Assembly: GCA_949152475.1 (NCBI GenBank) | Contig: OX424561.1 | Coordinates: forward strand, 1,550,001 to 1,614,000 | Length of the DNA stretch: 64,000 nucleotides | Direction of reading: 5' to 3' | Origin: Terebella lapidaria | Taxonomy: Eukaryota; Annelida; Polychaeta; Terebellida; Terebellidae | Shown: positions 19,601 through 62,352 of the stretch, in pieces | Layout: each line of letters opens with the position of its first letter | How positions within the stretch are numbered: position 1 is the stretch's first letter | The notes under the pieces: model-generated | Databases searched by the model: none | Seen by the model: the letters and a program-made list of their open reading frames with translations, nothing else | What the model was told of the DNA's origin: nothing | Program-made: the position numbers and the translations under genes

Positions 19601-21022
19601 GATTGACGCTGTTATAGTGCTATTTGAAGCAAACTTGATTAAAATATGTTGAAAATTATGCCTCACCCGGTTTACACTCCGAGTCACAACTCACTGGAAA
19701 TGTCCTGCAAACACGAACAGACCATCACACGGGGAATATCACTGTAGGACAGTTCTCCATAGATACGGGTACTGTCCATCTCTTGCCTATAGGACTAGGC
19801 AGTTTAATCTTTAGATCATTCATTCATTCATTCATTCGTTCATTCATTCATTCATTCATTCACAAATCAACTTCCGAAAATACGTGGTTTTCCACTTTCT
19901 GTTTCAAACAAAATATTGACTTGGTTGTTGTTACGAGTACGATTTGATTATTTTGAAAATTTCTTGTCACCAGGTCTAGGCCACTTTGCGAGTACGCATG
20001 CGCCGGCGAGCACCAATCACATGTCGTTGCCGTGTGACGTTGACCAGTATTCGCAGCCGGCCTCGCATCACGTGATACCCGGAACCGGGAGCGGACAGAC
20101 TCCGCACGTATCGCTCCACGCGAATCACGTGGGTCACCATAGTAACGACGGACCACCTCCGCTGTCGGCCCTGACCACTGCCTCCCCAACCGTCCCTTGC
20201 TCCACTCTCAAGGTCGAGGACATCAAGGACGCGCGCCCCGAGGACTCGGCGCGCCACTCCGTCAAGTCCGAGGTGTCGGATACTGATCACCATGACGACG
20301 AGGAGGAGGACGAGGACGAGGCTGACGATCAGTCCGACAGAGACGCAAAAAACGGGTCGCCAGGGGAACAGAACTCAGACAACCCGCCTAAGAAGAAGAA
20401 GCGACGAGTTCTCTTCTCCAAGGCACAGACTTACGAACTAGAGCGCCGCTTCCGACAACAGCGCTACCTGTCGGCGCCCGAGCGAGAACACTTGGCCAGC
20501 ATTCTGCGACTGACGCCGACACAGATCAAAATCTGGTTCCAGAACCACCGTTACAAGCTGAAGAAGGCTCGCCAGGAGAAGGGCATGGAGCTTGCTCCGC
20601 TACCGTCCCCACGCCGAGTGGCTGTTCCCGTGTTAGTGCGAGACGGCAAACCCTGTCAGCCCACGATGAACAGCTCCCTCGGCATGAAGCAGGACTACGG
20701 TAGTCTCCAGACCCCGGACATCCTCACAGGCATGAACTCCGCTTACGGCACCGTGCCGCCCTCAGGACTCAATTCCTTCAACAGCATGAGTTCCATGCCG
20801 TCCGTTCAGACAATGAGTGTGCCCGGTGGTGTCACTCCCTCTGCCATCACCGGTATGACATCCATGCAGTCACTAGCCTCGCCCATGAACTCCGTCAACA
20901 TGTCAGGGACGACTTATAGCACGCCGGGGTCAGTGGGATCAGTCAATATGAACAATATGGGTTCGCTATCGTCAGGAGGCTTAGGCTCATACAACTACCC
21001 ACTCACACAGCGCTGGTGGTGA
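13605..21022 (+). CDS. Nkx2.2: NK2.2/vnd-type homeobox transcription factor, copy A (spliced gene)
   Basis: Sequence-specific nuclear transcription factor. In vertebrates and flies this family patterns ventral or medial neural progenitors; in vertebrates it also acts in pancreatic endocrine cells. Model: exons 13605-13673, 18425-18710 and 19974-21022, in frame, 467 aa. Visible parts in order: TN motif [15 protein letters not shown], intron at YYA|G, an acidic stretch with VKSE, a KKKKRR basic start, and a homeodomain with WFQNHRYK (Tyr54 marks the NK2 class). After it come the NK2-specific domain [15 protein letters not shown], a Ser/Met/Asn/Gly-rich tail and the C-terminus PLTQRWW, resembling the ...HPLVQAQQWTW end of human NKX2-2. 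The assignment to Nkx2.2 rather than Nkx2.1 rests on [19 protein letters not shown]. Exons 2 and 3 are secure; exon 1 is inferred. A second copy lies tail to tail at 46.0-47.9 kb. Confidence 0.85.
14155..14645. repeat. ~110-bp direct repeat pair flanking a TTGGCCCAA-rich cluster
   Basis: 14170-14278 and 14530-14645 are diverged direct repeats. Both contain 'gaccact/gccactt...ctgatac(a/t)ac', 'agatta(t)a..gattta' and end in 'aaaagggTAGGCCTAa'. Between them (14300-14480) lie at least five GGCCCAA/TTGGGCC words, often paired as inverted halves such as 'ttggcccaacgttggc'. All of this is in the first intron of Nkx2.2 copy A. Confidence 0.65.
15851..15905. repeat. Four-unit array of AGCGNGTACAC-like words
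   Basis: Within the first intron of Nkx2.2 copy A, variants of 'agcg-gtacac' recur four times at about 13-16 bp spacing (agcgcgtacac, agcgtgtacac, agcgagtacac, agcgtacac). It may be a small tandem repeat or a cluster of one binding site. Confidence 0.6.
18425..18710 (+). CDS. Nkx2.2: Nkx2.2 copy A exon with TN motif
   Basis: It encodes ...[17 protein letters not shown]..., then a Pro-rich stretch, then [10 protein letters not shown] and [11 protein letters not shown] matches the family TN (Engrailed-homology-1-like) motif that binds Groucho/TLE co-repressors. DNPYTRWF matches human NKX2-2 DNPYTRWL. The donor is GCAG|GTACGA at 18711, phase 1. The acceptor is taken at 'cttccacag' (18424); a second in-phase AG at 18436 would shorten the exon by four codons. 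The GTG at 18497 is not a credible start because conserved residues lie before it. Confidence 0.85.
18711..19973 (+). other. Nkx2.2: Intron 2 of Nkx2.2 copy A
   Basis: Phase-1 intron in the position typical for Nkx2.2 genes, just before the acidic region and homeobox exon. It runs from GTACGA to 'cttgtcaccag'. It contains a run of about 15 G (near 19053-19067) and a (CATT)n microsatellite at 19819-19860. Confidence 0.8.
19819..19860. repeat. (CATT)n microsatellite
   Basis: About ten copies of CATT with one CGTT interruption, about 115 bp upstream of the homeobox-exon acceptor. Confidence 0.9.
19974..21022 (+). CDS. Nkx2.2: Nkx2.2 copy A homeobox exon (last coding exon)
   Basis: Begins after ACCAG in phase 1 (A|GGT CTA GGC) and runs to TGA at 21020-21022. 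The homeobox is about 20393-20581. A 108-bp stretch, 20459-20566, is identical to copy B (46366-46473). The NK2-specific domain is at about 20609-20657. The segment before the homeobox is acidic ([12 protein letters not shown]) and carries LKVED and VKSEV, which match the SUMO-site pattern (hydrophobic-K-x-E). After the NK2 domain the protein is low in charge and rich in S, M, N and G. Open frames on the opposite strand here are shadows. Confidence 0.95.
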
Positions 21023-27689: not shown

Positions 27690-28176
27690 CTGGCCACTGA
27701 TCAAGCCGGCGAGGTGTGTGTCGTTAGTGTCTATGGAAGGGCCACTGATCGAGCCGGCGAGGTGTGTGTCGTAAGTGTCTATGGAAGGGCCACTGATCAA
27801 GCCGGCGAGGTGTGTGTCGTAAGTGTCTATGGAAGGGCCACTGATCGAGCCGGCGAGGTGTGTGTCGTAAGTGTCTATGGAAGGGCCACTGATCAAGCCG
27901 GCGAGGTGTGTGTCGTAATTGTCTATGGAAGGGCCACTGATCGAGCCGGCGAGGTGTGTGTCGTAAGTGTCTATGGAAGGGCCACTGATCGAGTCGGCGA
28001 GGTGTGTGTCGTAATTGTCTATGGAAGGGCCACTGATCGAGCCGGCGAGGTGTGTGTCGTAAGTGTCTATGGAAGGGCCACTGATCAAGCCGGCGAGGTG
28101 TGTGTCGTAACTTAAGTGTCTATGGAAAGGCCACTGATCGAGCCGGCGAGGTGTGTGTCGTAAGTGTCTATGGAAG
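27690..28176. repeat. 48-bp minisatellite, 10 copies
   Basis: The unit is 'ggccactgatc(a/g)agccggcgag' followed by 'gtgtgtgtcgtaagtgtctatggaag'. The period is exactly 48 bp except near copy 9-10, where a 4-5-bp insertion lies. Units alternate mainly between CAAGCC and CGAGCC versions, which suggests a 96-bp higher-order repeat. Because 48 is a multiple of 3, long open frames exist on both strands (133 aa and 199 aa with 16-aa repeats). These are by-products. Confidence 0.95.
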
Positions 28177-28189
28177 GGCAAGTGACACT

Positions 28190-32414: not shown

Positions 32415-35363
32415 CTAGCACACGGCTGTGCGACGCGCTTTGGGCTGAACTAGTTTTAATGATTTGCTGTGACGAGTTTCATAGGCATGCGTTTCTTGAG
32501 ATAATGAAAAAAGATTACTCAGCGTCAGAGGTAACTGGCCATTAAGAAATGCGTATACATACTTTAGGACCTGCATGTGATATATGTCTGTTAGTTTTAA
32601 AATAAAGAGGCGTTTGAAAATCGGTTCGGTGTGTGAGTTGAATGGTACCCCCGCCACGGAGCGGATTATCTTTTTCTGTTGCACGACAAGTTTGTTCAGG
32701 TAGGTAGAGTGGGCTGCTCCCCACAGTGTTATTCCATAGAGTAAATGTGAGTACGCTAGAGTATAATATAAGGATGTCAAAAGTTGTGATGTCAATACCT
32801 GTTTGGCTTTATTAATTGCGAACATTGCTTTAGAAAGTTTTTTAGATAGATTATTTATATGTTCAGTCCATTTCAATTTGTCGTCGATGTAAATTCCCAA
32901 AAACTTTGTATGTTTGCATTGTGTTATTGCCTTGTCCGATAGGTTCAGCTGGGGGAGGTTAAGTTGTTGTTGACGTGAAGAATTACCGAATAACATGTAG
33001 TTTGTTTTTAGAACATTAAGAGACAGTTTGTTGGCTTTGAACCAATCAGTTAAAGAATCTAGTTCGATATTCATTTGATAATATAGTGAGGACAGGTTTG
33101 TGGACGATGCATAAAGGGTTGTGTCATCAACAAATAATATTGAATTTGAGTACTTAAGGACATTTGGTAGATCATTGGTATATAATATGAAGAGAAGTGG
33201 CCCTAAAACTGATCCTTGGGGAACGCCACAAGAGATATTCTGCAACCCTGAACATACTCCCATATATTGTACATATTGAGTTCTGTTGCCTAAATAACTG
33301 TGAAACCAATCTAGTGCCTTGCCCCTAACCCCATAAAAGTCAAGTTTACGCAATAATATATTATGGTCAATGGTGTCAAACGCTTTAGATAAATCTAAAA
33401 AAACTGACAGGGTGTGGTGGTTATCATCATCAGATTGAACCAGATCTGATATAAATTTCGTGACAGCATCCACGGTACTACGATTCGGACGAAAGCCAAA
33501 TTGATTGTCATAAAGTAGATCATTGTTTTCAAGAAAGTGCAGGAGACGTTTATGAATTACTTTTTCCATGATTTTCGATATTGAAGGTAGTAACGATATT
33601 GGTCGGTAATTACAAAACTGATCTCTGCATTTGGACTTATGAATAGCAACAACTTTGGCTTCCTTTAAGGAATTTGGAACGATACCGCTTTCTATTGACT
33701 TGTTGATTAATATGCTTAATGGATACGAGACTGAAGACGTAAGTAATTTCAAGAGGTTTGTGCTGATTCTATCAGGCCCAGTACTGGTTTTCGCCTTACA
33801 TTTCTGAAGTATTTTCGCTATTTCATTATGGTCTGTGGGGGAAAGGAAGATCGAGGACGGATGTGCGGATTTCTGAGAGTGTAAATAATGCGAAAAATTG
33901 TTAATCGGTTTGTCAATAGCCTGTGCAAATTTGGGACCGATGTCAGTGAAGTATTTGCAAAAGCCGTTCGCGATATCAGATGGATTGGTTAATTCTGAAC
34001 CATTATGCATAAATTTCTGTGGTATTTCTTGCTTGTTGGAACACTTCCCAATAACGCCATTTATTACTTTCCATGTTTTTTTCATGTCCCCCTTATGTTG
34101 CTCAATTAAATTACCGTAATAGATCATTCTTGTTCTTCTTTTTAAGTTGTTATGTTTGTTTCTTACAGTTAAATATTGTTTATGAGCGGGATCTGTCTTT
34201 GATTTTCCGAGACATGATTTATATAGTTGTTCACATTTTCGTCCAGATTTAATAATGTCCTTCGTCATCCAGGGGAGTCGCGGTGTTAATTTATTGGACC
34301 GTTTCATTTTTTGGATTGGGGCATACTGGTCAATAGTATTATTGATTGTTCTGATCAACAAGTCACACGTTTCATCTACGTTGGCTTTATTAAACAGATT
34401 ATCCCACTTCACATTCAATAAATCAGCGTTAATTTTTTCCAGTATCGCTTCAGTGAATTTTCTATGCTCGTAAATAACCGGCTTATTTTTGCAGCGCGTT
34501 GCTGGAAGTTTTACGAATGCAAAAACTGGAAAGTGGTCCGACATGTCGTGGATTAATATTGCAGAGTTTATATTGAGATTGTCGTTATACTTAGCATATA
34601 TATTATCAATAAGGGTTGCTGTACTGTGAGTTACACGGGTAGGCTTCGTAATTATGGGGATCAGCGAGTGGGCCAGAGCATTGTCAAACAACTCGCCAGT
34701 TGATTTGTGTGAATGTGCTTTAATCAGGTCGAAGTTTTGGTCTGTACCAATTATAATATTCTGCTTATTTTGCAACTTTTTGAATATATCATTGTATCGT
34801 TGCAATGAAAGATGCTGTTCAGAGTTTGGCACTCTGTAAATTTCCCCAACAACAAATTTTATGTTATTTATATCCACATCAATAAATACGGATTCAAATT
34901 CCCCTTCAATAAATGTACTAATATCATCTCTGCTTTTATAAGCAAACGTGTCCTTCAGGTATATAGCGACTCCGCCGCGTGTCATATCTTTTCTGTGTTT
35001 GGATATCATATTGTAACCCCCTAAATTAACCAAATGCGTGTTTCCTTCGTGTAAAAACGTTTCGCATAACAGCAAGCAGTCCAATGTAATATTGTGTTGT
35101 TCAAAATTGTGCAAGAGTTCTTGCAAGGATATATGCTTTGCTGCTAATGACTGGATATTCAGATGCATCACTTTGAAATCACTCTTCATAATATCATTGT
35201 TTCCTTTCACATATGCAATAATACTATCAAGGTCGTAGTATTGGCTAGGACCAAGATCGTTATAAAGATCAATATCACGATCATCGTTAGATGAAGACTC
35301 GACCAGTAGACTCGTAAGATCTATTGCATTCTCATTTAGAGTGTCGATATTATCGTAATCCAT
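32415..35363 (-). CDS. LINE ORF2-type polyprotein: endonuclease + reverse transcriptase
   Basis: 982 aa. An N-terminal APE endonuclease (about 65-290) carries HLNIQS (Asn69), CETFL (Glu101), [16 protein letters not shown] (Asp208), TLIDNIY and SDHFPV (275-280). The reverse transcriptase (about 525-790) carries [44 protein letters not shown] and FVDDTTLY, where the family usually has FADD. Single-strand DNA is nicked at the target and reverse transcription is primed there; this is family knowledge. The frame stops at TAG (32415-32417), but the same frame continues for about 46 more codons (SIVKKGPELWNDIHSDL...) to TAG at 32274-32276. That segment looks like the normal end of such proteins, so one nonsense change probably trimmed the tail. 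Upstream there is no second long ORF. Confidence 0.9.
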
Positions 35364-35604
35364 TGTATATAATAGAAGATCTTACAGCTGTTCCCTGCGG
35401 GCTTCCCGCGACGAGCTGTGCGGGAGGAGAGCAATCACAGGCACCGACTCCCGGAACCAGAGGGAAGCCAACCGACAACACGACACATCGTGCAACTGAC
35501 ACACCAACAACAGACCTGAGGATGAACAAAATGACATGGTAGTTACACGTACGATGTGATGGTGGATATAATGAAAATAATGGGTGACAATGACGAACTG
35601 GAAA

Positions 35605-46005: not shown

Positions 46006-46763
46006 TTACCACCAGCGAGTTTGGGCCTGCATGAGCGGGTGGTTATAGCCCGCCAGACTGCTATTACTCATACCCATATTGTTCATTCCGTACGAGGAGT
46101 TCATGGAACCGAGCGTGTTCGCTGCCATGTTGCTCATACACGACATCCCAGACGTCATTCCGGACATCTGTGTCGTCATGGCGTTGAAGCCGGACCCCAT
46201 GCTGCCGTAGCCTCCACCCATTGAGCCAAGTCCGCTCATATCGTGTCCCTTGGCGAGAGCCGAGTTCATGGGCTGACAGGGCTTGCCGTCACGGACCAGG
46301 ACAGGCACGGCCACACGGCGGGGCGCCGGAAGGGGCGTCAGGTCCAGTCCCTTCTCCTGCCGAGACTTCTTCAGCTTGTAACGGTGGTTCTGGAACCAGA
46401 TTTTGATCTGTGTCGGCGTCAGTCGCAGAATGCTGGCCAAGTGTTCTCGCTCGGGCGCCGACAGGTAGCGCTGCTGTCGGAAGCGGCGCTCAAGTTCGTA
46501 AGTCTGAGCCTTGGAGAAGAGAACTCGTCGCTTCTTCTTCTTTGGCGGGTTGTCTCCGTCCTGTGTTGTGTCGTCATCGTCGTCTTCCTCGTCCTTGTCA
46601 TCGTCCTTCTCGGATTTGATATCGTCACAGTCTGACTTGGCACAGTCTCGCTCTGAATTCTTGTCGCAGTGTGAGAGCTTGTCCGCTGTCTGCGCATGCG
46701 CGCTGTGCTGTTGGCTGCTCATGTGTTGTTGTGTTGACGTCGCTGAAGGTATACTTCCGAAAC
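46006..46763 (-). CDS. Nkx2.2: Nkx2.2 copy B homeobox exon
   Basis: Starts after TTGTCAG at 46764-46766 in phase 1 (G|GT TTC GGA) and ends at TAA (46006-46008). The homeobox spans about 46351-46542. The 108-bp block 46366-46473 is identical to copy A. The NK2-specific domain lies at about 46273-46320 with many synonymous differences from copy A. The M at 46785 is in the intron and is not a start. Confidence 0.95.
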
Positions 46764-47770
46764 CTGACAACCGAGAAGCATGCATTAATTAATATTGAAA
46801 GAAAAAAAGAACCTCATTCGTGTGTATGCATATCAAAAACCAGAGTCCGCAAATAAGGCGATTTGTATGAGCCTTGATATATTTTTTTTCTCTCTAGAGC
46901 TCTTCATAATAGTGAAAACAGGCTCCATAAAACAATTATTTATACTAGAATAGGCCTACGCAGAATCGAGTGTACCTAAAAAATGCTCATGCTGGCTGAT
47001 CACACACACATGTAGGCTATGCTTATAACGTGGTGCGAATCAGTGTCAATGTCAATTAAAATATGCCAAATCGTTAATAACTGACAGTGTTTTGTTTTTG
47101 TCTCGAAACAGACCAAATCATTTCACTTTGTGGAATCTATCGAACAAGAGGTTTAATTATATGTCCCATTCGCTATATTAAGCATATGCTCTTCTCAAAA
47201 TCGTATAGGTTTGGAAACTATCGCACCACAGTCACCTTTTAGTACATTTCCATAATACGCTTGTTAATATGAAACACGAAGAGTTTTGTTATTTATGATT
47301 ATATTACATGCCCTAGATCTACTATCAGACAATGTAGATCTACACTGACCTGAGTACTGTATATTTTCGTTGGACTGAAGCCACCGGGAGTACGGGTTGT
47401 CATGGTCATAAAAAGCCGCCGTCACGGAGGGCGACTCGGCCTGGTTCTGCTGGTTGCCATGGCAACCGTCCCTGTTGTCGTGGCTGCCTGCGTTGCCATG
47501 ACTCCCGGTGACGATCTCGCCCAGTTCCGGTGTGGATGACTGCGCATGCGTGGCGCCATGGAGCACGTGCTGGTGTGCCGCGTGGAGAGCGCTGCCGGCG
47601 CCCGGATGATGCGCGTGTCCCCCGCCTCCGCCGAGGGCCCCGGGGTGATGTCCCGGGAGACCGAGCGCGTGGCCGCACACTCCCGACTCCTGCAGGTCCA
47701 GCAGGTCCTTGACGCTGAAGCTGGAGTTGGGCGCCTTAGCCTCGCCCATGGTCAACTGGCCCAGGTCCAT
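46006..47770 (-). CDS. Nkx2.2: NK2.2/vnd-type homeobox transcription factor, copy B (spliced gene)
   Basis: Second Nkx2.2-type DNA-binding regulator. The two exons 47770-47350 and 46763-46006 join in frame into 392 aa. Parts in order: MDLGQLTMG..., TN motif FSVKDLLDL (compare human FSVKDILDL), a His/Gly-rich stretch, [18 protein letters not shown] (compare human DNPYTRWLASTEGLQYS), intron in phase 1. Then come an acidic stretch with IKSE, KKKKRR, a homeodomain with [23 protein letters not shown], an S/M/G-rich tail and the C-terminus [12 protein letters not shown]. It is closer to the vertebrate protein than copy A at the TN motif and the C-terminus. The frame is also open upstream to an ATG at 47899, which would add 43 residues. 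An acceptor-like CCCACAG right before ATG 47770 argues that an upstream exon may join here instead. Confidence 0.9.
46764..47349 (-). other. Nkx2.2: Intron of Nkx2.2 copy B
   Basis: 586 bp, donor CAG|GTCAGT, acceptor TTGTCAG, phase 1. It has the same position and phase as intron 2 of copy A and as the pre-homeobox intron of vertebrate NKX2-2. It contains one TAGGCCTA (46951-46958). Confidence 0.85.
47350..47770 (-). CDS. Nkx2.2: Nkx2.2 copy B TN-motif exon
   Basis: 140 codons plus one base. It encodes [26 protein letters not shown], then a Gly/His-rich region ([16 protein letters not shown]), a stretch with [19 protein letters not shown], and DNPYSRW. A 16-bp perfect palindrome, GGTTGCCATGGCAACC (47452-47467), that matches the RFX X-box lies within the coding sequence. 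The GC-rich reading frames on the + strand are shadows. The exact 5' boundary is uncertain (47770 with acceptor, or 47899 as an alternative start). Confidence 0.85.
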
Positions 47771-59899: not shown

Positions 59900-62352
59900 G
59901 ATTTCACTGGGTCACTAATGGACTGTTAATATCGAGACGAAAAAAAACAAAACTGTTCTCTAAAAAAGTTAAGGATCCTTCTAGAATTAATATCGCTAAA
60001 TACAAAAAATATGTAAATACGTACAACAAACTTAAACACATTTTGAAGATAAATTATTACACAGAGGCACTAGAGGTAAACAAACAAAACATGAAACAGA
60101 CCTGGAAGATTTTGCAGTCGGTAATTGGTAAACATTCCAAACAATCACAGTTCCCAAGCATTCAATAACTACTTATCTACTATCGGTAAAAACACTAGTG
60201 AGAATGTTCCCACAGTGGACAAACATTTCACACAATATCTCAAAGATCCCAATCCGAACAGCATATTCCTAGAACCTATTCAAGCATCCCTTATCATTGA
60301 GCTGGTAGGGAAACTTAAATCAAAGTCAAGTTCGGGGCATGACGAAATCTCCACAATTATTTTGAAAGAGACAATAAGCTTAATAGTTGAACCAATATTG
60401 CACATAATTAACATTTCCCTTGCAAATGGTGTAGTACCAGATGAACTGAAAATTGCAAAGGTTATTCCAATCTATAAAGCTTCTAACTCTGGATAACTTA
60501 ACAATTACAGACCAGTTAGTTTACTTCCGGCAATCTCTAAAATACTTGAAAAAGTCATGTTCAATAAGATAATATCATTTATGAATAGTCAAAATTTATT
60601 CTACAATCATCAATATGGGTTTCGCCCTAACCACTCAACAATCCACCCAATAATACATTTATTAAATGACATAGCCAGCAACATTAACTTATCCTCTAAA
60701 TATTTGACGATGTCAATCTTCTGCGATCTCTCTAAAGCATTTGATGTTATCAATCATGATATTTTATTTAAAAAACTAGATCACTATGGCATTCGAGGGA
60801 TCGCAAAAGTATGGCTCATCAACTATTTATCAAATCGTAAGCAGTATGTCCAATTTGACAATGAAAAATCTGATATGCAAGACATCACTTGTGGTGTCCC
60901 TCAGGGATCAATACTAGGACCACTCTTATATTTAATTTAGGCCTACGTAAACGACATAGCCAACTCGACTAATGCCAGCATATTATCATTCGCCGATGAC
61001 ACATCCCTATTTATCTCTGATATTAGCATAACTAACCTCTTTGAACGCGCAAATGCAGAAATAAATGAACTGTACATATGGTTTTGTGCCAACAAACTGT
61101 CTCTGAATGCAACAAAAACCAAATTTGTTATTTTTAGAAGTCAACACACGAAATATAATTCTGATAACCTGTCACTGCAAATAAATGGCACATCGTTGTA
61201 ACAAATAGGTGAAAATTATCAAGAACACAGTACTAAATTCTTAGGATTACACATCGATGAACATTTGTCCTGGAAGTATCATTTATCTCACATTAATAGC
61301 AAAATTTCCAGAGGGCTTTTCCAAATCAAACAAGTCAAGAAGATCCTGCCTCCTGACAGTCTGAAAACACTGTATTATGCTCTAATACACCCATATATAC
61401 TGTATGGAATTCTGGCTTGGGGCAATGCAAACCCCTCTACAATGAAAAGATCTATAATTCTGCAAAAACGGGCAATAAGGACCATACATAATGCATCATA
61501 CAATAGTCACACCGATCGATTGTTTATCAAATCTAATAATTTAAATATCCTCGATCAACACAGATATGAAATAATACTTTTCATGCATGATTATGTCAGG
61601 AACAAACTACCAGATTCTTTCAACGAATTATTTAAATACAACCACCAGGTGAGTGACAAGTATCATACAAGGCAGTCAAATTTATTGCACATCAAGCGCT
61701 GCGATTCTCGGTTCGCAGGGAGACTTCCGTTGTTCAATTTCCCAACTGTATGGAATCAAACTGCTTTGAATCTCCAAAACATTATTTCCAAACAACAAGC
61801 CAAAAGGAAAATAAAATCTCTACTGTTCGCTTCATATAACAGATCCGCAACTTGTACAAACATATTCTGCACTGACTGCCACGAAGTAACCTAAAAATAA
61901 CTAACAGTATGAATTGAATCTGTTTTTTTCTTCTTCAAATATTCCACCATTTATTTGAAAGTCGACTTGGTCCAGTGTTCATTCCCCATACACTTAGCCT
62001 TCCATCTCCCGTGGCGTCTCGTGGTGTGGCTTGGGGTTTTTTGTGGCATCTGTCGTTATGCAGCATCTCAAATTCCTTTATTATTTATAACTTATCCTAT
62101 ATTATGTATCAAAATATTACATCTATTTTGGGGTTGAATGGAAGACAGCTACAGCTAATTCAATCCCACGACCTCAATATATTGTTCTATCTCATGCATT
62201 AATGAAATATTTTGTCATTCAAATCATTCAACATGTACAAATCATTTTATTTACTAATAGATATACCAATAGTTTTGATGTTGAGATGAATGAATGTGAT
62301 TAATGTTTTTTTGTATATTGAAGTTGTAAATAAACTACAACTACTACTACTA
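59900..62352 (+). mobile_element. 5'-truncated, decayed LINE (Jockey/CR1/L2 superfamily)
   Basis: Begins inside the linker before the reverse transcriptase (HWVTNGLLISRRKK..., about 59902); the endonuclease is missing. Reverse-transcriptase motifs can be read through 60125-61894: NYRPVSLLP, YGFRPNHST, IFCDLSKAFDVINHD, GVPQGSILGPLL, FADDTSLF. There is one frame change or deletion near 60150 and three in-frame stops, at 60494, 60938 and 61199. The stop at 60938 belongs to a 6-bp TAGGCC insert. The 3' UTR ends 'gtaaataaactacaactact' with an (ACT)n tail at about 62332-62352. It is a different lineage from the LINE at 31.5-36.3 kb and much older. Confidence 0.85.
60938..60945. repeat. TAGGCCTA inside the LINE reverse-transcriptase frame
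   Basis: The frame reads ...GPLLYLI-TAG-GCC-YVNDI... Removing TAGGCC gives LIYVNDI, matching ILYTNDL of the other LINE and the usual family motif. Confidence 0.8.

Follow-up and report, generated by a model that had tools for sequence, protein, structure and literature searches.

The window analyzed in this study, a 64,000-nucleotide stretch of DNA from the annelid Terebella lapidaria, lies within a 44-Mb contig of a 761-Mb genome. It carries two Nkx2.2/vnd genes, copy A on the plus strand and copy B on the minus strand, which are arranged tail to tail with 26 kb between them. The homeobox exon of copy A (19974-21022, +) is an open frame encoding a homeodomain whose closest solved structure is that of vnd/NK-2; its 5' end was placed at an AG acceptor, and it closes with a TGA stop codon at 21020-21022. 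The homeobox exon of copy B (46006-46763, -) is likewise an open frame encoding a homeodomain, with its 5' end placed at an AG acceptor and a TAA stop codon. Pfam recognized the homeodomain in both Nkx2.2 copies, and the best solved-structure matches of copy A were vnd/NK-2 (9e-36) followed by Nkx2.1 (TTF-1; 4e-29). Judging from Pfam for both copies and from the structure ranking for copy A, both genes encode NK2-type homeodomains, closest to vnd/NK-2. A further exon of copy B lies upstream (47350-47770, -), with limits set by an ATG and a GT donor, and encodes FSVKDLLDL, which we take to be the TN (repressor) motif; this exon had no Pfam match, and a pattern search of the window and of the 10 kb before it found no TN motif for copy A. 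Downstream of the homeobox, copies A and B share the same 18 residues (20609-20662, +, and 46270-46323, -, by codon alignment of the copies), the NK2-specific domain. In addition, each gene has retained a C-terminal region with RWW at its end, an indication that the entire 3' part was duplicated long ago.

The DNA between the two genes also holds a 988-codon retrotransposon frame with endonuclease and reverse transcriptase domains (32415-35381, -) and a 48-bp tandem repeat of 10 copies with 94% matches (27692-28179). Two open frames at 60497-61894 (+) may be pieces of another reverse transcriptase.

When the two homeobox exons were aligned codon by codon, a block of silent identity was found at 20378-20566 (+) in copy A and at 46366-46554 (-) in copy B, where BLASTN also placed it. 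This putative conversion tract of 189 bp covers five codons before the homeobox and 58 of the 60 homeobox codons; all 63 residues are the same in both copies, as are 58 of 62 degenerate codons. There are exactly four silent differences, at 20389, 20425, 20440, and 20458. As the earlier note had reported, 20459-20566 matches 46366-46473, read as its reverse complement, at all 108 bases, or 36 codons, and the roughly 25 preceding codons to which it had ascribed about four silent differences proved to be 27 codons (20378-20458) that hold these four, all of them silent. The conversion proposed in that note is retained below, but its 108-bp extent is not: the perfectly matching stretch is the cleanest portion of a single 189-bp tract with four later silent changes. 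All four changes fall in the 5' part of the tract (probability about 0.03, calculated by hand from site counts), which is weak evidence for two conversion events.

Outside the tract, the two copies have diverged strongly. The comparison of dS along the two copies that had been suggested earlier gave 0.10 in the tract, 1.6 in 20567-20662, and 1.9 further downstream, while divergence upstream of the tract was too high for an estimate; silent sites are thus near saturation on either side. In the tract 58 of 62 degenerate codons are the same, as against 12 of 27 over the 32 codons that follow and 14 of 29 beyond those. The NK2-specific domain served as an internal control: its 18 codons specify the same residues in both copies, yet 10 of them differ silently (about ten had been counted before), which argues that protein selection does not preserve silent sites. 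Over the homeobox exon as a whole, 44 of the 135 shared degenerate codons differ between the copies, and the tract stood apart in Fisher tests both from the other shared exon 2 codons (8e-10) and from the NK2-specific domain (1.7e-5). When silent differences were permuted, a block as clean was obtained in 0 of 200000 trials; permutation within degeneracy classes gave 1/50000 and 0/50000 for two statistics. A BLASTN search of positions 1-33000 against 33001-64000 of the window recovered, on the opposite strand, a 290-bp piece of the exon and four other matches. All four involve a single, probably repetitive stretch (26.8-27.2 kb) with matches at several places. When the 3.2-kb loci surrounding the two genes were compared, BLASTN returned the homeobox piece and nothing else. 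Third-position G+C was 0.73 in the tract of copy A and 0.74 in that of copy B, with flanking values of 0.72 and 0.65 for A and 0.59 and 0.71 for B, and was uninformative as to the direction of conversion.

Other homeobox pairs of the genome were then compared on the basis of 61 homeoboxes. Pairs were retained when they lay on the same contig, at most 100 kb apart, with at least 80% identical homeodomain residues, which applied to 28 of 58 close pairs; family names of the other pairs were read from their homeodomains. Left out were 13 homeobox matches at C11:23.09-23.30 Mb, a 27-copy array at C7:15.37-15.46 Mb, the 446 of 596 first-look candidates that were left unscored, and some isolated matches of that list. 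The pairing also omitted duplicates of one place, isolated or unrelated homeoboxes, homeodomains sharing one C11 gene (L036), and a C8 match (L073). In the C7 array (C7:15372609-15455155), a homeodomain match of 46 residues within an open frame of 58 aa is listed 27 times, and 17 of its 26 neighbour steps measure about 2.57 kb. A run of Hox-type homeoboxes was seen on C14.

Seventeen of the 28 pairs look like members of young families (12 in an array on C6, 3 in a C14 set, 1 Gsx, and 1 Cux), and their flanks match where they were compared: in C6 over up to 2.3 kb at 91%, otherwise over about 0.7 kb at 80-81%, at 98% for Gsx and 99.7% for Cux, and also in the one C14 pair examined. The homeoboxes of the Gsx-like pair (C2:12814970/12820724) and of the Cux-like pair (C2:20682355/20699069), whose aligned flanks gave the 98% and 99.7% just cited, are identical; these pairs are recent duplications or assembly duplicates. 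Another seven pairs, namely five Hox pairs, the NK1 pair, and one on C7, are silently diverged, with 38-62% agreement. The NK1 genes, 29.6 kb apart, agree at 29 of 54 codons and show no sign of conversion; silent differences affect 25 of 54 codons inside the homeobox and 26 of 39 outside (P 0.06), so there is no clear contrast. In the C7 pair, 32.7 kb apart, 14 of 37 codons agree. Given that the NK1 and C7 pairs are unconverted at a like distance, closeness and homology are not enough.

The remaining four of the 28 pairs (Nkx2.2, Nkx2.1, Emx, and, more weakly, Pitx), and hence four of the eleven close pairs outside the young-looking families, combine silent identity around the homeobox exon with diverged surroundings. 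The Nkx2.1 genes lie 30 kb apart on the same strand and agree at 50 of 54 homeobox codons; silent differences were counted at 4 of 54 codons inside the homeobox and at 31 of 57 outside (P 5e-8), and BLASTN returned a match of 194 bp only. In the Emx pair (25 kb apart, same strand), 39 of 45 homeobox codons agree. Its upstream coding sequence differs at once, and the downstream match extends into an intronic minisatellite of both copies (1.1 kb per copy compared), so the Emx pair is not strictly homeobox-limited. This minisatellite (L077:611-1138) has a 26-bp unit similar to the end of the homeobox exon together with the 5' splice site there; it looks as though this end of the exon had been amplified into the intron. 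The Pitx genes (29 kb apart, same strand) agree at 32 of 41 homeobox codons, and are 95.6% identical over 135 bp of the homeobox exon, with matches of at most 45 bp elsewhere in 2.1 kb. Since the Nkx2.1, Emx, and Pitx pairs lie on the same strand, a tail-to-tail arrangement is not required: the inverted arrangement pointed out earlier for Nkx2.2 is present, but it is not needed for conversion.

An intron near residue 46 divides the homeobox of both the Emx and the Pitx genes into two exons. A constraint on the homeobox as such predicts equal agreement in both, including the 3' exon that encodes the recognition helix, whereas conversion would tend to pass over a short exon standing on its own. 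For Emx, agreement was found at 42 of 48 codons of the 5' exon but at 5 of 14 homeobox codons of the 3' exon (Fisher P 3e-4). In Pitx, the counts are 35 of 44 for the 5' exon and 10 of 14 for the 3' homeobox exon (P 0.71); among 37 conserved 3'-exon codons, 19 of 30 agree (P 0.18), and a trimmed 5' part compared with those 3' codons gave P 0.02 with limits set after seeing the data. Emx fits the conversion prediction, and Pitx does not discriminate.

Could the block have arisen by chance together with a codon preference shared by the two genes? Of the 1326 pairs among 52 homeoboxes, 263 have 30 or more residues in common, and these agree at a median of 48% of degenerate codons, with up to 79% (22/28) in an unrelated pair; a fair amount of agreement is therefore ordinary. 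The Nkx2.2 homeoboxes, in contrast, agree at 54 of 58 codons (93%), where pooled usage of 48 other homeoboxes predicts 24.2 (P 7e-19), and usage from 44 homeoboxes tilted to the third-position G+C of each gene predicts 25.4 (P 9e-18). The composition-matched null is imperfect: among ten pairs tested, Hox pairs L010/L011 and L010/L013 gave P 0.03 and 2e-3, and the Hox pair L013/L016, picked because it was high, gave P 3e-5. Even so, codon bias was rejected on both usage models, and the probability that we would assign to it is practically nil. A second function of homeobox DNA or RNA, such as an enhancer, an RNA structure, or an overlapping gene, might instead freeze silent sites at the nucleic-acid level. 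Four gene pairs have their silent identity centred on the homeobox exon, as such a constraint would have it, and in four comparisons of Nkx2.2 with Nkx2.1 silent identity was slightly above expectation (P 0.015-0.07). Against this stand the silent divergence of the NK1 pair, the C7 pair, and the five Hox pairs, and that of the Emx 3' homeobox exon, whose protein sequence is conserved. Moreover, folding of the block RNA was ordinary (z -0.79, with equal or better folding in 47 of 200 shuffles) and no Rfam match was found in the window at gathering thresholds, so that an RNA structure or known RNA family was rejected; the constraint as a whole appears unlikely.

The dS of about 0.1, seen in the homeobox block alone, would also be expected if the genes had duplicated recently and diverged fast outside the homeobox, or if the homeobox exon alone had been copied into an older relative. 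Recent duplication was rejected because the NK2-specific domain is silently diverged while identical in protein and because the flanks fail to align; the RWW-ending region present in both genes also tells against either version, and we consider them very improbable. Fractionally less credible still is an artefact of assembly or polishing that copied one homeobox onto the other, as the two genes sit in unrelated surroundings on a single 44-Mb contig, the copies differ at four sites of the block, and similar patterns are seen in other gene pairs. Searches of viral and prokaryote contigs for orthologs gave 15 and 152 pattern matches, respectively, none of which was confirmed as a relative.

Interlocus gene conversion confined to one contiguous homologous stretch would best account for the block, and we place the probability of this reading at roughly 90%. 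It is drawn from the pattern between paralogs within a single genome: the sharp bounds of the silent identity, the highly diverged flanks, and the like patterns in other pairs all point to conversion. The local tract between paralogs that had been proposed from the letters alone thus emerged as the best explanation after tests of codon bias, recent duplication, RNA structure, and homeobox-wide constraint. Following an old duplication, the tail-to-tail Nkx2.2 genes would have drifted at silent sites nearly everywhere until these approached saturation, and purifying selection on the homeodomain protein would have left only the homeobox as an uninterrupted stretch with enough similarity for strand exchange. 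If one homeobox then suffered a double-strand break or a stalled fork, its repair may have used the other copy as template, a step we infer from the pattern; the repair would have copied about 190 bp and reset silent divergence to near zero, and four silent changes would have accumulated afterwards. The dS of 0.10 suggests that the latest event considerably postdates the duplication, yet was not very recent.

The wider survey raises the possibility that conserved homeobox exons of this annelid genome are recurrent islands of conversion, such that several old neighbouring pairs (Nkx2.2, Nkx2.1, Emx, and probably Pitx) have been repeatedly homogenised whatever their orientation, with homeodomains kept matched while the remaining sequence and its regulation diverge freely, and with homeobox-only trees misdating the duplications as recent; we regard this broader proposal as tentative, at slightly worse than even odds. 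Duplicated homeobox genes commonly receive their dates and names from homeodomain trees, and if several pairs of one genome have been homogenised in this very segment, such trees would call old duplications recent and lineage-specific. In the serpulid Spirobranchus, Nk1a/b, Nk2.1a/b/d, Nk2.2b, and Emx A/B are reported, a gene set that would fit old duplications common to annelids without being proof of them. The contrast between single-exon and intron-split homeoboxes also offers a natural experiment on the contiguous homology needed for conversion.

Two contigs of organellar appearance were noted in the same genome. The mitochondrial contig reads nad1-nad3-nad2-cox1-cox2-cox3-nad6-cob-atp6-nad5-nad4, with genes named from their translations, which is the usual annelid order. 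Contig C417 (L063, L064), at 24% G+C, carries another cox1, which has long insertions and uses TGA for tryptophan, next to an apparent nad1; these features suggest mitochondrial DNA from a ciliate that lives inside the worm or on its surface.

Conversion between homeobox paralogs is a kind of process already known, of which the Nkx2.2 pair is apparently a clear new case. Literature titles and abstract openings yielded nothing on conversion between Nkx2.2 or Nkx2.1 copies, which says little, as most subscription papers were beyond reach. For amphioxus Pax3/7a and Pax3/7b, conversion is only suggested, making the parallel a tentative one (PMC6010424). The mammalian TPRX1/TPRX2 genes resemble the present case in their repeated homeobox-gene conversion with a breakpoint just 3' of the homeobox, but they are highly divergent PRD-class genes and were tested with many species (PMC8208926). 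Concerted evolution of hexapod engrailed and invected (Peel et al. 2006, via PMC3199776 and PMC6444547) likewise involves gene conversion between tail-to-tail homeobox paralogs, though in another gene family and in other animals. The closest known case is Dlxa/Dlxb of Capitella teleta, for which homeobox gene conversion was described in an inverted tail-to-tail pair (McDougall et al. 2011, PMC3199776); the same study reports no sign of conversion in the Dlx pair of Pomatoceros lamarckii. As in the Nkx2.2 pair, the Capitella genes are annelid, inverted, and identical at the nucleotide level in the homeobox region with the rest diverged, and their tract of 150 bp may be likened to that of Nkx2.2 (PMC3199776). 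Unlike it, they belong to another gene family and their tract included intron sequence. What is new here, and goes beyond the Capitella Dlx genes, is that the pattern occurs in four close pairs of one genome, three of them in direct orientation.
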